From Planctomycetota bacterium (GTDB taxonomy: Bacteria > Planctomycetota > Planctomycetia > Gemmatales > Gemmataceae): a stretch of 36,179 nucleotides of DNA. Made by a program: the position numbers and the translations under genes. Within the stretch, counting starts at the first letter, position 1. The number at the start of each line of letters is the position of its first letter. The notes beneath the pieces are model-generated. The model worked only from the letters and a program-made list of their open reading frames with translations. It was not told the origin of the DNA and made no database searches. The stretch covers positions 1 to 36,179 of the forward strand of contig VGYC01000061.1 in NCBI GenBank assembly GCA_016873095.1, in the 5' to 3' direction. This document shows positions 3,825 through 32,703 of the stretch, in pieces.

Positions 3825-4568
3825 GTGGCTGACAAGGTTGCAGTGGTGACGGGCAGTGGCAAGCGCCGCGTCGGCTGGCATGTGGCACAGGCCCTGGCGG
3901 AGCGTGGATACGCGCTGGTGGTGCATTACCATCGCTCCGCCAAGGAGGCCGAACAGACAGTGGAAGAACTGCGAGCGCGCGGGGTCGAGGCTGTCGCGCT
4001 GCAAGCGGACCTGACGCAGGAGAAAGCGGCACGCGGCCTTGTGGAAGAAACGCTCGCGCGCTTTGCTCGGCTCGATGTGCTGGTCACTGCCGCCGCTATC
4101 TGGCAGCGCAAGCCCCTGGAGGACGTCACGGCCGACGACGTGCGCCGCCACTTCGACACCAACACCTTGTCCACGTTCATCTGCGCGCAGCAAGCCGGCC
4201 TGGCCATGGTGAAACAGCCGCAAGGGGGCAACATCATCACCATCGGCGACTGGGCGACGCAGCGACCCTACCTCGATTACGCGGCCTATTTCCCCTCCAA
4301 GGGGGCCATCCCTACCTTGACGCGCAGCCTGGCCGTCGAGCTTGGAACCCGCAACTCGAATGTGCGCGTCAATTGCATCCTGCCCGGCCCCGTCATGTTG
4401 CCGCCGGACCTCCCGGTTGCCGAACGCCGGCAAGCGATCGACGCCACGCTGGTCAAGCGCGAGGGCAAGCCGGAGCACATAGCCCGGACAGTGCTTTTCT
4501 TCATTGACAACGACTTCGTCACCGGCGTGTGCCTGCCGGTGGATGGCGGTCGGACGATCTTCAGCTAG
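3825..4568 (+). CDS. SDR family oxidoreductase, pteridine-reductase-like
   Basis: Protein of 247 aa with a GTG start at 3825, preceded by GGAGA (3814-3818) at 6 nt. It has a Rossmann N-terminus with VVTGSGKRRVG, a YxxxK pair within YFPSK, and a C-terminal VDGG, so it is a short-chain dehydrogenase/reductase using NAD(P)H. The usual catalytic Ser is replaced: in GDWATQRPYLDYAAYFPSK an Asp sits exactly 13 residues before the catalytic Tyr. Pteridine reductase PTR1 has the same Asp-Tyr-Lys arrangement, and the HYHRSA segment after beta-2 also resembles PTR1 and its bacterial relatives. A pterin or related carbonyl substrate is therefore plausible, but a FabG-like activity cannot be excluded. Confidence 0.85.
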   Translation: MADKVAVVTGSGKRRVGWHVAQALAERGYALVVHYHRSAKEAEQTVEELRARGVEAVALQADLTQEKAARGLVEETLARFARLDVLVTAAAIWQRKPLEDVTADDVRRHFDTNTLSTFICAQQAGLAMVKQPQGGNIITIGDWATQRPYLDYAAYFPSKGAIPTLTRSLAVELGTRNSNVRVNCILPGPVMLPPDLPVAERRQAIDATLVKREGKPEHIARTVLFFIDNDFVTGVCLPVDGGRTIFS

Positions 4569-16174: not shown

Positions 16175-18439
16175 CTAGTCGCGGCTGGCGCGCCATTCGA
16201 GGCCGAGGGCGGTCATGCTCTCACGCTTGGCCATGACAGCCCAGGGAGTGTCTGGATACTCCTTGAGGATGCGATTCCAGGACTTCTTGATGTCCTTGAG
16301 CCAGCCTTTGACCTTGGCTTCCTTCTTGGCGCTCTGGACATCCGGAATCGCGCCGACGCGCCAGCCGTTGTGGATATCGGCCTTCAGATCGGGGAGCCGG
16401 TCGGCACGGACGTCGCCCAGGATGAAGTTGTACTCGAAGGTGTAGACAAGTCGCGACAGCAAGCGGGCCTTGGCGTAGTCGTAGTTGGCTTGCCAGCGCT
16501 TGGAGGTTTCCTTGTCGCGCTCATCCTCGGCGGTCAAGAGTTCGCCGAGCGCCTCTTCCAGCTTGAAGATTGCCACGCCCGGTTCCTTCTGCTTGGCCAG
16601 GAAGCCTTTCTTGATCTGCGGGGTGACCGGGCCGCCCGGACTCGTAAGTGCTTCTTCCATGACGAACTTGGCGTTCTCGCTCAAGGCCTGCGCCACCTTC
16701 AGCACGGCAACGCGGAGCGGATACTCCTTCGGGTTCGCCTCGACCATCTGCTTCAGTTCGGAGAAGGAGGTGTATTTCTCCTTGAAAAGCTCGAGTGCCT
16801 TGGCGGGAAACGGTGGCAGATAGTTGAACTGCAGCGAGTTGTCGGTTCCGGGCCGGGCGGCGCGGACCGGTGGGATGCGGTTGATCTCGTCCAGTATGTT
16901 CTTTACCAGGGCATCGCCGGCAAACTGGCCGGGCGCCGGGGCAAGTCGGCGTACCTCGAGATGCACCGGCATCGGCTCGGCAGGATCGTAGGGGGGCGTG
17001 CTGGACGGCGGCTTGCCGGTCAAGCGCGGCGTCTGCTCGAGCTTGTCGCTGGCGAGCAGCATCTTCATCTTTTCCTGCACGCGTGCCGCCAGCGAGTCCA
17101 GCGGCAACGGATTGCTTTGCTCCTGGATGCCGGTAAGGCCTTCTTGCATGGCGTGGCAGAGCGATTGCAAGAAGATACTGCCGCGCTCGAACTCGTAGGC
17201 CTTCTGGTCCTTGGCGCAGGACGCCCAGACCTGGACATTCTTGGGAGGGGTCTTGATCATGGTGTCGAGGATTTCCCCCATCTCGCCGCTGCCGGGGAGT
17301 TCCAGGCCGCGCGCCGGGGAATAGCGGCACACGTCCAGGATCAGCACTTTCTGCCAGGCCAGGCATTTCGAGAGCTTGTCGTAGACCCACTTCAACGGGA
17401 TGAGCGTCTTGGCATCTTTCATGTCGCCTTCGATGGGAACCAGGTACGCTTCCTTGTCGATATCGACGGCATGGCCAGCGAACAGCAGCACAATTCGGTC
17501 CTGCTCGCGGCAAGTAGCCAGGAAATCGCTGATGGCATTTTCGATGACCGGCTTGAGAGTGGGTTGCGGGCTGCGGGCGCCGTCGGAAAGCTCGAAGACC
17601 TGGGTGGCCGGCATGTTCATGGGCCGGCGCTGCATCTGGTCGGCAAGCACGGCCGTACTGCTGCCTGGATAGCGCTCGTCGCGGGCGCTGCCGTAGTTCA
17701 GAGGGTTGGCGAACAAGTAGTTGTTGACGTTGATCAGCAAAGCACGGCGCGGAAACGGCCGGCCCGACGCGATGGGGACCTTCTTCAGATTGATTCCTTT
17801 CTTGGTGCCGACCGGCGAGTAATCGGACTTCTTGTCCGCATCCTTGGTCTTGCCCGTGCCGGGGGTTGCACTGGCCTTTTTCTTGACATCCTTCTGGCCC
17901 GCGTCAGAAGGATCGTAGTTCTCATCGTGGTCGGAGTCGCCCTTCCTGTTGGCAATGCCCTGGCTCTTGTCCTTTTTCTGGAACAGGCTCGCGATGTGCT
18001 CGCCGGCGAAGAAGTAGACGCCGCCACCGATGGCGAGGACGCACACGGCGAGAAATGCGCCCACCTTGAAGCCGCTCCCCTGCTTGCGCCGGCGGGGAAT
18101 CGGAGTCGACTCGAGTGGTGCATCATCGTCAAACGCGAATGGATCACCACTCGTGGGCCGGGTACGCACTGGAGCCGCGGCGCGCGGAGCGGTGGCAGCA
18201 GCAGGTTTGACGGCAGCCGCCAGTGCCGGCTGCGACGGAGCGGCGCTGGTCAGCGGTGCGCTGGTCAGCGGTGCGCTGGTCAGCGGTGCGCTGGTCAACG
18301 GTGCGGTCGGAACGGACGCCACCCGCGCCTGGATGATTTCTCGGCAGAGCTTGCAACGCATCGACTTGCCGATCCATTCGGACGGAATGCGCAACACACT
18401 CTGGCACTTGGGACACCTGCTTTGAACCACCGAAGCCAT
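16175..18439 (-). CDS. Membrane-anchored caspase-like (C14) protein with N-terminal zinc ribbon
   Basis: Protein of 754 aa. The N-terminus is a zinc ribbon (C9, C12, C29, C32) followed by four copies of a five-residue APLTS repeat and an Ala-rich linker. A transmembrane helix lies at about 125-145, then a Lys/Asp-rich stretch. The caspase-like domain starts near residue 230 (RRALLINVNNYLFANPLNYG) and carries the catalytic His in LLFAGHAVD (H323) and Cys in LILDVCRYS (C371), so it should be proteolytically competent. The region after about 480 has no recognised domain and looks helical and charged. With the ribbon inside, the protease domain would face outside the cytoplasm. Bacterial metacaspase-like enzymes usually cut after Arg or Lys; the target is unknown. 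Confidence 0.87.
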   Translation of the reverse strand: MASVVQSRCPKCQSVLRIPSEWIGKSMRCKLCREIIQARVASVPTAPLTSAPLTSAPLTSAPLTSAAPSQPALAAAVKPAAATAPRAAAPVRTRPTSGDPFAFDDDAPLESTPIPRRRKQGSGFKVGAFLAVCVLAIGGGVYFFAGEHIASLFQKKDKSQGIANRKGDSDHDENYDPSDAGQKDVKKKASATPGTGKTKDADKKSDYSPVGTKKGINLKKVPIASGRPFPRRALLINVNNYLFANPLNYGSARDERYPGSSTAVLADQMQRRPMNMPATQVFELSDGARSPQPTLKPVIENAISDFLATCREQDRIVLLFAGHAVDIDKEAYLVPIEGDMKDAKTLIPLKWVYDKLSKCLAWQKVLILDVCRYSPARGLELPGSGEMGEILDTMIKTPPKNVQVWASCAKDQKAYEFERGSIFLQSLCHAMQEGLTGIQEQSNPLPLDSLAARVQEKMKMLLASDKLEQTPRLTGKPPSSTPPYDPAEPMPVHLEVRRLAPAPGQFAGDALVKNILDEINRIPPVRAARPGTDNSLQFNYLPPFPAKALELFKEKYTSFSELKQMVEANPKEYPLRVAVLKVAQALSENAKFVMEEALTSPGGPVTPQIKKGFLAKQKEPGVAIFKLEEALGELLTAEDERDKETSKRWQANYDYAKARLLSRLVYTFEYNFILGDVRADRLPDLKADIHNGWRVGAIPDVQSAKKEAKVKGWLKDIKKSWNRILKEYPDTPWAVMAKRESMTALGLEWRASRD
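18243..18302 (-). repeat. 15-bp tandem repeat, four copies
   Basis: Four head-to-tail 15-bp units (GCGCTGGTCAGCGGT on the plus strand); the first three are identical and the last has one mismatch. They encode APLTS repeats in the linker of the caspase-like protein. The unit length keeps the frame, so copy number can vary without breaking the gene. Confidence 0.95.
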
Positions 18440-19439: not shown

Positions 19440-19536
19440 GTTCTTATTGTCCGGATAAGTGCGACAAACGGCGAACCGCTCGCTCCGTAGAATGGACATG
19501 AGTACATCGTGTATCATTCCCTCGGAGAAGGCACTC

Positions 19537-22500
19537 ATGCTGAGGGTGGTCTGCTCGCCGGCGCCGGAGTTGCGCTGGCAGCCGGAATCCTTGCCTGAAG
19601 AACTGGCGGCGACTGGCCGGCGGCTGCTGGAAACACCACGCCGCTGCCTGTGGATCGTCTCCACCAGCCGGCGGCGGCGGGCCCTGTTGCGCCAGGCGGT
19701 AGGCGGCGGCAGGCGAGCCATCCTCCTGCCACGCGTCCACACCCTGGAGAGCTTCGTCGCCCAGGCGCTCGAGTACTGCCCGCGCGCGGGGCAGCGCGTG
19801 ACCGGTCCGGAAAGGCTTCTCCGTCTCGCCCGCGCCTGGAGCGATGTCACCAGCCGGCCCCCGCAAGCGCAGCGCATCCGTCAGCTCGACCGCTTCATTC
19901 GCGATTGGCAGGCGTGCCGAATGACGTCGGACGACGCGAACGATTACTTTGCAAGGGTCGTCAAGCGATTTCAGGTCGACCTGGCCAATGATAAGCGTCT
20001 CGATCGCATGTCCAGCTTCGCCTTGTTGCTGGACGAGTTGGCGGATGAACGCAGCTGGCCACGGCGTTATTTCTTCAACGCGATCGACACCGTCATCTTC
20101 GACGGCTTTCACCGTCTTGAGCGGATTGAACTCGATCTCGTCGGCACGCTGTCGCGACAGCATGACGTGACGTTGTGGCTCGTGGCCACGTCAGGGCAAG
20201 AGTCTGAAAAGACGGCGCTGGCCGCGCTCAAGTATCTCGATGAAGGCGGATTCGCGCCGCGCAAGATGGACGTACCCGCATGCTCCACGAATCCGATTGC
20301 GGAGGTGGGTCGGCGACTCTTCCCGGCCGCGAACCACTCTCGAACGGCCTGCGCGGGCCCTATCGGCAATGAAGCCGCCATCTTCAAGCTGGAACGGCTA
20401 ACGCCGCTTGAGGAGGTCGAGGCTGTGGCGCGGTCGATCAAGCATGATTACCTGGCGGCGCGGACACGGGGCGATGCCATGCGCCTGAGCGATGTCGCGG
20501 TCATCATCCCCGGACCGGGTTATGATCCGCTCATTCGCGAGGTTTTTCCCCGCGCCGGACTGGAGTTCAATCTCGCCGGCCGGGCCCTGGAAGTCAGCCT
20601 GTCCCGTCCCGCACGCGTGCTGACTGCGGCGCTGGATCTCGTCCGCAACCAGTGGCGCCACGACTTGCTGCTCGATTTCCTCGGCCTACCGCTGGTCAGT
20701 CGATGCCTCGTTGATCGGCATCGTTTGCACGATCTCTTTGGCAATCGACCGCGCTCTCGCAAACGGCTGGACCATGACGCCTGGCGGCAATCATGGCAGG
20801 CATATCTCGCGGGCCTGCGCCGGCAGATCGAGCGCTGGTTTTCCGGCGAAGAGGCATTGCCCGAACGAGATCGGCACAGGCCACAGGAGTTTCTCGATCG
20901 CCGCAAGGAAGCAGCCGACAGCCTGGAGCGCCTGGTCGCGTCCATCGAGCATGTCCTGGAGCCCGTTGCCGCCATTGAGAAGTTGCTGGCCGAGCCGCCG
21001 GAGCGACATGCGCTGCGCGAACTGGTGAGAAGGATCGGCAACCTGCTGCGTCTGCTTGCCATCGAAACTTGGCTGCAGCCGCCGGGCCTGCCATCCTCGA
21101 CAACGACACAGCCTGTCCCATGGGTTGAGTACGAAAAGGACCAGCAGGCGTACTTCAAGCTGCTGAGCGTGCTGCAGTCGCTGGCGGAGACGCCGGATGC
21201 CCGTTTGCCGGTGCGGGCGGATGGCCGGCCCGATGTCCGCATGGCGCTGTCGCTGGCCCTGGATGGCGAGAGCTATCAGATCAAGACCGAGGATGATGCC
21301 GGCGTGCAGATTTTCGAGATTCGCGAGATTCGTGGCATGCGCTTTCGCCACGTTTACGTCCTGGGCCTCGTGGACGGCCTGATGCCGGCGTTGCCGGAAG
21401 AAGGCATGCTGGCCGCGCGCCGCCGCAGGTTTCCGGCGCTCGAACAGCAGCTCCAGGCCAAGGAGGATGAAGTCAAGCACCTGTTCACGCAAGCCTTCGA
21501 GTCGGCCGGCGAAAAACTGATCCTGTCGCGCTGGACGCTCGAGGGGGACCGTCCGGCAACGCCCAGTCCGTTCTTCGAGCGCGTGAAAGCGCCGCCACTG
21601 GAGATGCCACGGCTTGTTCCCAGCGTGGCCGATGCCGCGTCGCTGCTGGGCATGCGCTGCGCCGCCATGGTCGACCTGTCCCGGTCATGGCCCACGGCAA
21701 AGGGCGACGCGCAATCGGTTCTGCAACGCATGTGCGAATCGATCGCCGGCTGGCGGGCCCGACCGGCAGCCAGTGCACCAATCCACCTCGGCTTGCCGGC
21801 ATTGCTGGCGCGTATCTACGGAGAGGACCGGGCCTTCAGTCCAAGCGAGTTGGAGCAGTATGCCGCCTGTCCGTTTCGCTACTTCGGCGCCCGCGTGCTC
21901 AATCTGCGTGAGCGCGAAGGGGACGAGTCGATTTTCGCCCATGGCTCGCTGCTACACCGCGTGTTGAACCGCTTTTACGAGGAGCGCCGTGCCGCGGCTG
22001 CGGCCGGCAAGCCGTTGCCGGCCGTCGGCCCGGCGGATCGGTCCAACATACTCGAGATTTACCGCAAGGAATGGAACGAACAAGAGGATGGCATCGTCTC
22101 ACCGGAGCTGCTGACGATCTTCGAGCGCCGTAACGGGCTACTGGATTTCTTCCTGGAACTAATGGCGACCATCGAGGCAGACGGCGGCAACCTCTGGACC
22201 GAGTTGCCGTTGCGCGTTCGACTCGGTAGCGACCCCTCAGGGCACTCGGTCTTGCTGCATGGGACCATCGATCGCATCGATGGCCTGAATCACGGGGCAA
22301 ACACCGCCGGCGTCATCGATTACAAGTCGGGCGCCATCGTCGATCACAAGGAACTGGCTGTGAAGCTGGGCGACGGTCGGCGGATCCAGTTGCCGCTCTA
22401 TGCCGCCGGCTTCGAGGCGGCACACCCAGGCTGGAAGGTGACGCGCGGGCATTATCTTCATCTGACGTCGCGCAAGAGGTCCAACGAAAGGCCCAACGAT

Positions 22501-22716
22501 GCAATCGTCAATATCGGACCATTGCAAGCCAACGGCACGTTCGATACCCAGGCGGCCGTGGACATGGCCCTGGCGTTCGCCGGCCGAATTCGCGGCGGGG
22601 ACTTCCCGCTCACCCCGTTTCCCCGCGGAACCAACCAGCACGAGTGTAATAGCCGGTGCCCGCTGCGCCATGCCTGCCGTCATCCGAACGGCTACGAAGT
22701 TTCGCCGTGGAGGTGA
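19537..22716 (+). CDS. AddB-like PD-(D/E)XK nuclease with inactive helicase region
   Basis: Protein of 1059 aa. The ATG at 19537 has a strong GGAGAAGG 5 nt upstream; longer frames from 19459 are not needed. It resembles the AddB/RexB subunit of double-strand-break processing nucleases. No Walker A (GxxGxGKT) is seen at the N-terminus, but helicase-like landmarks remain (VIFDGFHRL; EIREIRGMRFRHVYVLGLVDGL). The C-terminal nuclease has FSPSELEQYAACPFRYF (from 767), GTIDRID with D912, and IDYK with D928 and K930, followed by QLPLYAAG. Cysteines C778, C1037, C1041 and C1047 are placed like the AddB iron-sulfur staple, though the C-x3-C spacing differs from the usual C-x2-C. The AddA partner is not in the window and may lie elsewhere. 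Nuclease function is likely. Confidence 0.85.
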   Translation: MLRVVCSPAPELRWQPESLPEELAATGRRLLETPRRCLWIVSTSRRRRALLRQAVGGGRRAILLPRVHTLESFVAQALEYCPRAGQRVTGPERLLRLARAWSDVTSRPPQAQRIRQLDRFIRDWQACRMTSDDANDYFARVVKRFQVDLANDKRLDRMSSFALLLDELADERSWPRRYFFNAIDTVIFDGFHRLERIELDLVGTLSRQHDVTLWLVATSGQESEKTALAALKYLDEGGFAPRKMDVPACSTNPIAEVGRRLFPAANHSRTACAGPIGNEAAIFKLERLTPLEEVEAVARSIKHDYLAARTRGDAMRLSDVAVIIPGPGYDPLIREVFPRAGLEFNLAGRALEVSLSRPARVLTAALDLVRNQWRHDLLLDFLGLPLVSRCLVDRHRLHDLFGNRPRSRKRLDHDAWRQSWQAYLAGLRRQIERWFSGEEALPERDRHRPQEFLDRRKEAADSLERLVASIEHVLEPVAAIEKLLAEPPERHALRELVRRIGNLLRLLAIETWLQPPGLPSSTTTQPVPWVEYEKDQQAYFKLLSVLQSLAETPDARLPVRADGRPDVRMALSLALDGESYQIKTEDDAGVQIFEIREIRGMRFRHVYVLGLVDGLMPALPEEGMLAARRRRFPALEQQLQAKEDEVKHLFTQAFESAGEKLILSRWTLEGDRPATPSPFFERVKAPPLEMPRLVPSVADAASLLGMRCAAMVDLSRSWPTAKGDAQSVLQRMCESIAGWRARPAASAPIHLGLPALLARIYGEDRAFSPSELEQYAACPFRYFGARVLNLREREGDESIFAHGSLLHRVLNRFYEERRAAAAAGKPLPAVGPADRSNILEIYRKEWNEQEDGIVSPELLTIFERRNGLLDFFLELMATIEADGGNLWTELPLRVRLGSDPSGHSVLLHGTIDRIDGLNHGANTAGVIDYKSGAIVDHKELAVKLGDGRRIQLPLYAAGFEAAHPGWKVTRGHYLHLTSRKRSNERPNDAIVNIGPLQANGTFDTQAAVDMALAFAGRIRGGDFPLTPFPRGTNQHECNSRCPLRHACRHPNGYEVSPWR

Positions 22717-22743
22717 GCGCCGGCGTCTGCTACAATGCCTCGC

Positions 22744-23640
22744 ATGACGCCGCCTGACGTTCCGCCTGCCAAACTCACATCCGCCGGCACCCGCACGCCG
22801 TTGCTCGGACGCGTACTGGGCACGCCGCAGCCCTCATGGGAGACCAGCCTCGACCGGCAGTTCTTTCCCTGGCTTGACGATCATCGCTTTCGAGGCCGGA
22901 TGGTGTTCCCCGGTATGGGCTACCTGGACCTGGGGCACGCCGCCGGCATTTCGCTGCACCCCGATACTCCGCTGGCACTGCACGATGTGAAGTTCTCCCG
23001 CGCCTGCCTGATATCCGAGAATCAACCGCCGACCTTGCAGACCATCCTGCAGGCAGAGAGTGGCGAGTTTACCGTGCATGGCCGGCGCTCCGCAAAGGCC
23101 GGCTGGACGCTGCATGCACGCGGCTTCGTTCGCCCAAACCAAGACGCAGCGACCGAGCCGCAGCGGCTAACCGACATCTGGGATCGCTGTCCCATCGACC
23201 TGGCCCGCCAGGATTGCTATCGACTCTTTCACGAGCGCGGTCTGGACTACGGTCCCGCGTTTCAGGGGATTGACCAGATGTGGCGCGGCCAGGGGGAATG
23301 TCTCGCTCGCATCGACGTCCCGAAGCAACTCAAAGACGCCGATCGCTGGTTGCATCCTGCCACGGTGGACGCCTGCCTCCACGTACTGCTTGGTGCGATC
23401 CTGCCCGGTGATGGCTCGCCGTCGCACGCGACATGCCCCGTCTACCTGCCAGTCGATGTCGCCGAGGTACATGTACACGCGCCTTCCGGCGAGACGCTCT
23501 GGAGTCACGGCCGAATAAGCGAGCAAAGCGCCTACGCCATCGTCGCCGACATCCGCGTCTTCGAGGAGACCGGGCGCGTCGTCTGGGAAGCCAACGGACT
23601 CCGCTGCCAGGCAATGGGGGGCGGCGTGCCAGAGAAATAG
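22744..23640 (+). CDS. Free-standing polyketide-synthase-type dehydratase (PKS DH)
   Basis: Protein of 298 aa that is one complete PKS dehydratase domain (double hot-dog fold) with nothing else attached. The N-terminal hot-dog has HRFRGRMVFP, the HxxxGxxxxP catalytic motif with H47, and the TPLLGR start typical of DH domains. The C-terminal hot-dog has LDYGPAFQGI and HPATVDACLH, the DxxxH catalytic motif with D209. Both active-site residues are therefore present. Such domains dehydrate beta-hydroxyacyl chains on an acyl carrier protein. No ketosynthase, acyltransferase, ketoreductase or ACP lies in the window, so its partner is unknown. It starts 27 bp after the AddB-like gene on the same strand; an in-frame ATG at 22735 is an alternative start. 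Confidence 0.82.
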   Translation: MTPPDVPPAKLTSAGTRTPLLGRVLGTPQPSWETSLDRQFFPWLDDHRFRGRMVFPGMGYLDLGHAAGISLHPDTPLALHDVKFSRACLISENQPPTLQTILQAESGEFTVHGRRSAKAGWTLHARGFVRPNQDAATEPQRLTDIWDRCPIDLARQDCYRLFHERGLDYGPAFQGIDQMWRGQGECLARIDVPKQLKDADRWLHPATVDACLHVLLGAILPGDGSPSHATCPVYLPVDVAEVHVHAPSGETLWSHGRISEQSAYAIVADIRVFEETGRVVWEANGLRCQAMGGGVPEK

Positions 23641-23753: not shown

Positions 23754-25562
23754 TTACCCTGCCAGCTTTTCCGCTTCGCCCACCATGTCGCCGAGTAGCT
23801 TCAATCCCAGTTCCCAGAAGGTGGGGTCGTTGACGTTCATGCCGAGCTTGCCGAGGAGGACGTGCGGCGCTTCCGAACCGCCGGCAGCGAGCAGATCGAG
23901 ATAGCGCGGCACGAAGGCGGGACCATCTTGCCGGTACTTTTGCACCAGGGCCAGCACCAGCAGTTCGCCGAACGCATAAGCGTAGCAATAGAACGGGACA
24001 TGGATGAAATGGCCGATGTACAGCCACCACCAGGCATAATCGTCCGTGAGAAGGACAGCGTCGCCGTGCATGGGACGATTGGCGGCCATCCAGATGTCGT
24101 TGATCTGCTCAGTCGAGAGCTCGCCCTTGTCCTTGCGGGCCTGATGCAACCCTTGTTCGAAGCGCGTCAGCACGACCTGGCGAAAGACGGTGGCGAAGGC
24201 ATCCTCGATCTTGCCGCACAGGAGCCCGAGGCGGATACGCGGGTCCGGGAACATCTCCAGCAGCCGTTGAAACGTCAGCATCTCGCCGAAGACGCTGGCC
24301 ATCTCGGCCGTTGTCAGAGGCGTGTCACACTGGAGGTAGCCGACGCCGCGTGACAGATACTGATGCAGACCGTGGCCCAGTTCGTGGGCCAGGGTCATCA
24401 CGTCGCGCAGCCGATCGGTGTAGTTCATGAGGATGTAGGGGTGCGCACTCGGAACGGCGCTGCTGGAGAAGGCGCCGCCTCGCTTGCCTGGCCGCAGTTC
24501 GGCGTCGATCCAGTTCTTGTCGAAAAACTCCCCGATGATGCCGCCGGCACGTGGGCTGAACGCCTGGTAGCTCTCCTGCACCATTCGTCTCGCCCGAGGC
24601 CAATCGCATTCCGGCATGTCGCCGTGGATCGGGGCGTAGCGGTCATAATCGTGGAGCTGGTCGATGCCCAGGAGCTTGCCCTTGAGGCGGTAGTAGCGCT
24701 GCACGAGGGAGTGATGCCGTTCCGTCGCAGTCATGAGCGCCTCGACCACCTCGTCGGTGATCTCGTTGGACAGGTGCCGCGACGACATGAAATGTGGGTA
24801 TTTGCGCAGCCGGCAATCGCCGTGATGATCAAGGACGAGATTGTTGAAGATGAATGTCAGCAGTCGCGAGTTCTCCTGCAGGCCGACGGTCAAGCCGCGC
24901 GCCGCTGCCTTGCGAATCGTACGATCCGGATCGTAAAGCTTGGCGAGAATCTGCTGCTGGCTGACTTTCTGAGACGCGCCGGCGTGCTCGAACGGGAATT
25001 GCATGGCGGACACGGATTCGTCGAACAGCCGGACGAAGGCGGCCCTGCCGGTGACCGATTTTTCATCGAGGATCTTCTCCTCCAACTCGCTGAGATAGTG
25101 AGGCCGCCAGATGCGCTTTTGCTCCAGGTGGTGCCGGTAGCGGGCCAGCGATGGGTTGGCCAGCAACTTGGCGACGACGTCGTCGGCCACCTTGACCCAC
25201 TCCAAATCGAAGAAGATGAGATGCTTGTTGCTGGCCGTGCGTTCTTCGCGCGTGCGTGACAGGAGTGCGCCGTGTCGCGAGTCGTCCGTCTTGGCGGCAT
25301 GGACCAGCCCGGCGTAGACGGCCGGCCTGTCCAGTTGTTCGAATAAGCCTTCAAGTTCAATCAGGGCCTCGCGCAACAAGCCGGCCGAGGCGGCATCCAG
25401 CGTCTCGATCTTGCCACGATATCGCGCCTCGAAGGCACGCGCTCGCTCCAGCGCGCCGGCAAGGTCCGCGCCGATCTTCGGATCGTCCACGCTCTGGTAG
25501 AGATCGCTCAGGTTCCAGGAAATCCCGACGGCGCTGCTGGCAGGAACGGTCGGCTGCTCCAT
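23754..25562 (-). CDS. pepF: Oligoendopeptidase F (M3 metallopeptidase)
   Basis: Protein of 602 aa, the normal length for PepF. The zinc motif HELGHGLHQYL is at residues 393-403, with H393, E394 and H397. A downstream Glu in the TTAEMASVFGEML block (E420 or E427) supplies the third ligand. The N-terminus has WNLSDLY, typical of this family. PepF hydrolyses short peptides in the cytoplasm; no signal peptide is present. The start lies 5 bp after the stop of the adaptor gene, so it is probably last in the efflux transcript, although the functions are unrelated. It converges with the DH gene across 113 bp. Confidence 0.92.
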   Translation of the reverse strand: MEQPTVPASSAVGISWNLSDLYQSVDDPKIGADLAGALERARAFEARYRGKIETLDAASAGLLREALIELEGLFEQLDRPAVYAGLVHAAKTDDSRHGALLSRTREERTASNKHLIFFDLEWVKVADDVVAKLLANPSLARYRHHLEQKRIWRPHYLSELEEKILDEKSVTGRAAFVRLFDESVSAMQFPFEHAGASQKVSQQQILAKLYDPDRTIRKAAARGLTVGLQENSRLLTFIFNNLVLDHHGDCRLRKYPHFMSSRHLSNEITDEVVEALMTATERHHSLVQRYYRLKGKLLGIDQLHDYDRYAPIHGDMPECDWPRARRMVQESYQAFSPRAGGIIGEFFDKNWIDAELRPGKRGGAFSSSAVPSAHPYILMNYTDRLRDVMTLAHELGHGLHQYLSRGVGYLQCDTPLTTAEMASVFGEMLTFQRLLEMFPDPRIRLGLLCGKIEDAFATVFRQVVLTRFEQGLHQARKDKGELSTEQINDIWMAANRPMHGDAVLLTDDYAWWWLYIGHFIHVPFYCYAYAFGELLVLALVQKYRQDGPAFVPRYLDLLAAGGSEAPHVLLGKLGMNVNDPTFWELGLKLLGDMVGEAEKLAG

Positions 25563-31929: not shown

Positions 31930-32703
31930 ATGACCGTGACCCTGATCACTGGCGCCGGCAGCGGCATTGGCCGCGAGTTCGCGCGGCGCCTAGCCGCCGA
32001 CGGCATGGCCATCGCCGCCATCGACTGCCAGCCGGAGGGGCTAAGTCAACTCGAGGCGGAGCTGCAAGGTCAGAATCGCCAGGTTGCCTGTGAGGTCGCC
32101 GACGTCACGGACGGACCGCTGTTGCTGGAGATCGTTGCCGCCCTGGAGCAGCGACTCGGGCCCATCGACCTGATGATCGCCAGCGCCGGCGTTGGCCGCG
32201 AAACCTCCGGCCTCGACTTGCGAATGGACGACCTGCAAGCGGTGATCGGCGTCAATCTGCTGGGCGTGGCCAATAGCATCGCAGCGGTGTTGCCCGGCAT
32301 GATCAAGCGCCGCCGCGGGCACATCGTCGCCATCTCCAGCATGGCCTCGTATCGCGGCGTGCCGCGCATGCTCGCCTACTGCGCAAGTAAATCGGGCGTC
32401 AACGCCTTCATGGACGGCCTGCGTATCGAGGTTCGGCCATATAACATCTTCACGACCACGCTCTGCCCAGGCTGGATTCGCACGCCCATGACGGCCCACA
32501 TCAACGGCCCCATGCCCGGCCTCATGGACGTGGACTACGCCGTCGGCCGCATGCTGCACGCTATTCGCCGGCGCAAGGCCTTCTATGCCTTCCCGGCGTC
32601 GCTGGCGTGGCGGCTGCGCGTGTTGCGCTGGCTGCCGCGCTCGACTGCCGACTGGCTCATCGCCCGCATGCTCGGCAGAATGAAAATCAGCCGCCAAGGT
32701 TAG
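31930..32703 (+). CDS. SDR family NAD(P)-dependent oxidoreductase
   Basis: Protein of 257 aa with GGAG 7 nt before the ATG at 31930. It is a classical short-chain dehydrogenase: the TGAGSGIG cofactor loop near the N-terminus, an ADVTD segment after it, ASAGVG (NNAG-equivalent), catalytic Ser in ISSMASYRG and the YCASK YxxxK pair. The CPGWIRTPM motif follows the active site, as in many SDRs. The C-terminal ~40 residues are unusually basic and hydrophobic (LAWRLRVLRWLPRSTADWLI), compatible with membrane or lipid association. The substrate is unknown. The downstream transferase gene follows closely on the same strand. Confidence 0.9.
   Translation: MTVTLITGAGSGIGREFARRLAADGMAIAAIDCQPEGLSQLEAELQGQNRQVACEVADVTDGPLLLEIVAALEQRLGPIDLMIASAGVGRETSGLDLRMDDLQAVIGVNLLGVANSIAAVLPGMIKRRRGHIVAISSMASYRGVPRMLAYCASKSGVNAFMDGLRIEVRPYNIFTTTLCPGWIRTPMTAHINGPMPGLMDVDYAVGRMLHAIRRRKAFYAFPASLAWRLRVLRWLPRSTADWLIARMLGRMKISRQG

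Follow-up and report, generated by a model that had tools for sequence, protein, structure and literature searches.

The window (the whole 36,179-nucleotide stretch that we analyzed, from a planctomycete of the family Gemmataceae) encodes a genuine and intact single-domain polyketide synthase (PKS) dehydratase (DH), which occupies a protein of its own on a contig that carries no other recognizable part of a PKS. Our best reading of the sequence is that this free-standing DH derives from a DH domain in a reducing PKS that belonged to the same planctomycete family. As to its present role, we regard it as about an even prospect that the detached domain has been kept as a separate protein and acts in trans on acyl-ACP, with C68, a synthase encoded on a different contig, as the sole certain maker of its substrate.

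A complete dehydratase in one reading frame

The free-standing DH gene lies at 22735..23640 on the plus strand and encodes 301 residues; a second in-frame ATG at 22744 would give 298 residues, and the stop-to-stop frame around the gene spans 307. We number residues from 22735, so that His50 and Asp212 are the H47 and D209 of the preliminary description, which counted from 22744. Both hot-dog halves of the domain exceed their Pfam cut-offs: PKS_DH_N (PF21089) matches residues 22-115 (E 5.9e-18; 65.1 bits against a cut-off of 27), and PS-DH (PF14765) matches residues 142-299 (E 2e-36; 125.5 bits against 23.7), covering positions 3-164 of the 166 in the profile. No Pfam family besides this one complete DH was found in the 301-residue frame, and there was no match to the FabA type (PF07977), PS-DH families alone matching the protein. 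NCBIfam matches were confined to part of the fungal product-template model and of the DH stretch of a mycobacterial PKS, both far under their cut-offs.

The catalytic motifs were evaluated in an alignment of 59 DHs. The first, D-HRFRGRMVFP (HxxxGxxxxP; 22879..22911, plus strand), contains His50 (codon 22882-22884), and the second, HPATVDACLH (DxxxH; 23353..23382, plus strand), contains Asp212 (codon 23368-23370) and His216 (codon 23380-23382). The equivalents of His50 and Asp212 are invariant in 59/59, as are the G and F of the core motif YGPAF (23248..23262, plus strand). At its final position the second motif has His in 10 of the 59 sequences and Gln in the other 49, and in the free-standing protein this Dxxx(Q/H) motif reads DACLH. 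All invariant residues of the aligned DHs are retained in it.

An AlphaFold2 model built with 38 relatives in the alignment (pLDDT 90.4, pTM 0.88) confidently predicts a double-hot-dog fold. The best structural match to the model is the CurF DH (VIA Z 35.1, 1.9 Å over 263 residues), followed by the AlnB DH (Z 35.0), and several PKS DHs match it at Z of about 35 and rmsd of about 2 Å. Foldseek places AlnB first (E 1.3e-26), as does phmmer by sequence (PDB 7TZL, 6e-38). The profile search and structure prediction that the preliminary description had recommended therefore bear out its view of a complete single-domain PKS DH with both catalytic residues intact, Pfam, motifs and predicted fold being in agreement; its suggestion that the fold has been put to a new purpose finds no support, because the model is that of an ordinary PKS DH.

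The frame also has the composition of a living gene. Its codon bias is strong (0.25 bits per codon, versus no more than 0.12 in any of the other five frames), indicating that the open reading frame did not arise by chance, and its codon usage and third-position GC content (GC3, 0.75) are native to the host, like those of its neighbors.

Kinship, constraint and distribution

The nearest relatives of the free-standing DH are all PKS domains, belonging to reducing PKS and PKS-NRPS enzymes. The closest (39-41% identity) is the DH of a synthase from another member of the family (G010:C1057), which has the layout KS-AT-DH-MT-ER-KR and ends at a contig edge. In a 59-row tree the two are joined at a starred node (96/84), beside other PKS DHs of the family; one further row in the branch of the free-standing DH, from genome G396, is very long and its placement is unsure. 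The DHs of four synthases from the family (G010:C1057, G466:C215, G499:C273 and C68 of the window's own genome) share 33-41% identity, their motifs and one tree branch with the free-standing protein, but each of them forms part of a frame of 2,204-3,549 residues, whereas it is a separate protein of 301. We infer that the domain was excised from such a family PKS.

Constraint on the sequence was assessed in several ways. In a leave-one-out profile comparison the free-standing DH ranks 24th of the 59, so its constraint resembles that of domains working in cis. It departs from the consensus at seven of 34 well conserved positions; 1 to 11 such departures are normal, which puts the protein toward the less conserved side. 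Its terminal branch in the 59-row tree measures 0.95 versus 0.35 for its sister, but with just three of the nine outgroups did relative-rate tests give p < 0.05. Taken together, profile rank, consensus departures, branch length and rate tests suggest a protein that is constrained, perhaps somewhat relaxed.

We searched for orthologues at three levels. The window's genome (G000; a draft of 548 contigs, 95.5% complete, with an estimated contamination of 3.3%) holds only one other DH, that within C68. No free-standing orthologue was found in 94 other genomes of the family, in 391 other Planctomycetota genomes or in a single-protein scan of 84,980 species. In a profile scan, every locus among the best 80 of 552 candidates lies inside a frame of 1,464-4,289 residues, a coverage that leaves more distant free-standing DHs possible. 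Several DHs in short frames elsewhere in the phylum were discarded as free-standing candidates: that of G078 is interrupted by the contig end, those of G121, G306 and G381 are placed by their coordinates close to a contig end or on a very small contig, and that of G161 is one DH split across two frames. Within the genomes searched, the free-standing DH is thus a singleton. The preliminary description had named a lone remnant without orthologues as an outcome that would count against it; orthologues are indeed missing from these searches, but the domain is not degenerate.

At the G161 locus (L198:4471-8782, G161:C1), the PKS DH extends over two adjacent frames, the second of which opens with a luciferase-like monooxygenase domain, followed by the second DH half and an ACP.

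The contig and the candidate partners

Immediately upstream of the DH gene is a gene for an AddB-like nuclease of the PD-(D/E)XK type (19459..22716, plus strand; Pfam PDDEXK_1, 2.5e-30, with the AddB model under its cut-off). The spacing of 27 bp given in the preliminary description is right when counted from the ATG at 22744, and is 18 bp from that at 22735. Such spacing makes co-transcription of the two genes likely; a scan for promoters and terminators found nothing above chance. The adjacency does not recur in relatives, as had been proposed for checking: of the two genomes with the closest AddB relatives, one has addA in the following position (G028) and the other a small, unrelated open reading frame (G023), and addA of the window's genome, a UvrD helicase with a PD-(D/E)XK end, is on contig C146. 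Because the neighbor differs and addA is unlinked, addB and the DH gene do not form a conserved unit, and the pairing is most likely incidental co-transcription of genes with separate functions. A defence-system reading of addB and its neighbors was dropped, as PADLOC gave no match. Downstream, and convergent with the DH gene, lies an M3 family oligopeptidase gene (PepF-like; 23754..25562, minus strand; Pfam Peptidase_M3, 4.6e-48), an enzyme for which we know of no polyketide link.

We record two further features of this region. addB and addA are separated in the window's genome, against their adjacency in G028, and AddB relatives were found in only seven of 59 related genomes at E 1e-20. At 16175-18439 (minus strand) the window encodes a caspase-domain protein that has a short APLTS tandem repeat and whose N terminus resembles a zinc ribbon (CPKCxxxL...CxxC).

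The contig itself offers the DH no partner. No KS and no carrier protein were found on its 36 kb, and tblastn revealed no convincing trace or debris of other PKS domains. The absence of KS, AT, KR, ER and ACP reported in the preliminary description thus holds, except that for KR it applies to the PKS type only, since two SDR-type reductases are present (matches at 3843-4157 and 31936-32418).

Elsewhere in the genome there are two type I PKSs, C68 and C39, both on contigs other than that of the DH. By Pfam, C68 is a PKS-NRPS hybrid (KS-AT-DH-ER-KR-ACP-C-A-T-TE), and C39 has the layout FAAL-ACP-KS-AT-MT-ACP, lacking DH, KR and ER. The only PKS-type KR is in C68 (E 2e-71; the next best matches are SDRs, at 4e-21 or weaker), and C68 is therefore the only certain source of a substrate. 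Its own DH keeps the catalytic His and Asp; the Arg at the motif Gly of this DH cannot be read as a sign of inactivity, because relatives carry K, Q, S, D or N there. C39 emerged from the search for KS or ACP genes without a DH that the preliminary description had advised, as the one of the two type I PKSs to lack this domain, but its candidacy is weakened: it has no KR to make the hydroxyl, and its orthologues G010:C804 and G027:C23 (51-53% identity) have the same DH-less layout, with no DH detected in the G027 genome by the search used across the family genomes.

The comparison with G027 also bears on how pathways are arranged. Four genes clustered in G027:C23 (L108, L109), encoding a FAAL-ACP-KS-AT-MT-ACP PKS, a C-A-T-KASIII protein, an MbtH-luciferase fusion and a FAAL-ACP protein, have counterparts of 52-59% identity on three contigs of the window's genome (C39, C66 and C79), and the C39 PKS is more than 14 kb from either end of its contig. 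This dispersal favors a distant partner for the free-standing DH. The cluster has a feature common to two genera, an unusual NRPS that ends in a KASIII-like domain (C-A-T-KASIII; L109:10-4311 and L194:3735-9089) beside the MbtH/luciferase-like monooxygenase fusion.

Other candidates were rejected. The fatty-acid-type cluster C77 has two FabA-like DHs of its own, and C86 and C79 carry FAAL-ACP proteins without a KS. The preliminary description had pictured a trans-acting DH for a remote pathway, PUFA-like or otherwise. A remote pathway is possible, given the two type I PKSs on other contigs; the PUFA-like link is unsupported, since the kin of the protein are DHs of reducing PKSs and PKS-NRPSs, it has no FabA-like match, and the window's genome contains no tandem, PfaA-like ACP array (11 carrier-domain matches, with no tandem runs).

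Function and comparison with known systems

In the model that we favor, the DH would have separated from a reducing type I PKS belonging to the planctomycete family and been retained as a protein in its own right. It would most likely remove water from a beta-hydroxyacyl chain carried by an ACP, following the general PKS-DH mechanism, in which His (here His50) serves as base and Asp (here Asp212) donates a proton to the departing hydroxyl. Dehydration would take place in trans, the synthase being encoded at another locus, and the C68 PKS-NRPS is the only certain substrate source. Against action on C68 stands the DH that C68 already possesses, and against any trans-acting reading stands the lack of an orthologue attesting long retention. 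No docking element was identified in the free-standing protein. The true partner may be missing from this assembly of 548 contigs, which is 95.5% complete. An extended form of this proposal, which we consider unlikely, is that the DH left its megasynthase to become an independently encoded subunit, dispersed in the genome and expressed behind a DNA-repair gene, which edits what a remote PKS-NRPS line (C68 or C39) makes, the polyketide pathways of this organism being spread across several loci.

The main rival, to us somewhat unlikely, is that the gene came away not long ago from a PKS since lost, is intact in sequence with its role gone, and owes its expression solely to having landed behind addB. 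It would account for the missing orthologues (in the 94 family members and the other genomes searched), for the lack of a partner clearly needing the protein and for the long end branch, though the rate tests were mostly non-significant. A neutral fragment should gain stops and lose core residues, however, unless detachment was recent, and this one has exact domain boundaries, every invariant residue and, with divergence of about 60%, a mid-ranking profile score, together with native codon usage and no PKS debris on its contig. An assembly artefact or contaminant, in which the DH was joined onto the contig from another organism, would be conceivable in a draft so fragmented and with some estimated contamination, but we find it hardly credible for a gene that is interior to a 36 kb contig, matches its neighbors in codon usage and GC, and has its nearest kin in the same family.

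Two other roles were considered. The protein could dehydrate for the C39 line, made up of the C39 PKS and the C66 NRPS-KASIII; an SDR ketoreductase would then likewise act in trans. This pathway is already spread over contigs, and the C39 PKS, the one without a DH, has an SDR gene upstream; yet the line evidently works without a DH in G027, its orthologues in G010 and G027 are equally DH-less, and it has no KR in cis, which makes this role very unlikely. An even slighter prospect is a role in primary or lipid metabolism, on hydroxyacyl-CoA or fatty-acyl-ACP outside any PKS: it would suit the lack of a PKS neighborhood and the free FabG-like SDRs and carrier proteins in the genome, but not the exclusive kinship with PKS domains or the FabA-like DHs that C77 owns. 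What is at stake differs accordingly. A trans-acting protein would be a minimal PKS dehydratase that occurs in nature outside any cluster, bearing on how domains of megasynthases turn into discrete enzymes and warning that genome mining by cluster overlooks pathway parts; a relic would be a minor curiosity.

Natural trans-acting DHs seem scarce, since such an enzyme was sought for the haliamide (PMC6274090) and mupirocin (PMC10098928) pathways and found for neither. The best solved relatives, the DHs of AlnB (PDB 7TZL), CurF and CurK (3KG6, 3KG9), at about 30% identity, are excised domains of PKS proteins from known pathways, whereas the protein described here is encoded separately. The PKS-type FclC DH of Xenorhabdus bovienii worked in trans when expressed alone (PMC9113149); it was excised by experimenters and is fused in nature. 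A parallel by description is LkcB of the lankacidin PKS, likewise a DH on a polypeptide of its own, for which action in trans has been proposed (PMC6162330). Detached PKS DHs are thus already known, and what differs here is the setting: LkcB is encoded inside its PKS cluster, but no PKS gene accompanies the present DH on its contig. For that reason we class it as a protein that would work like LkcB and not as a cluster member of the LkcB type.
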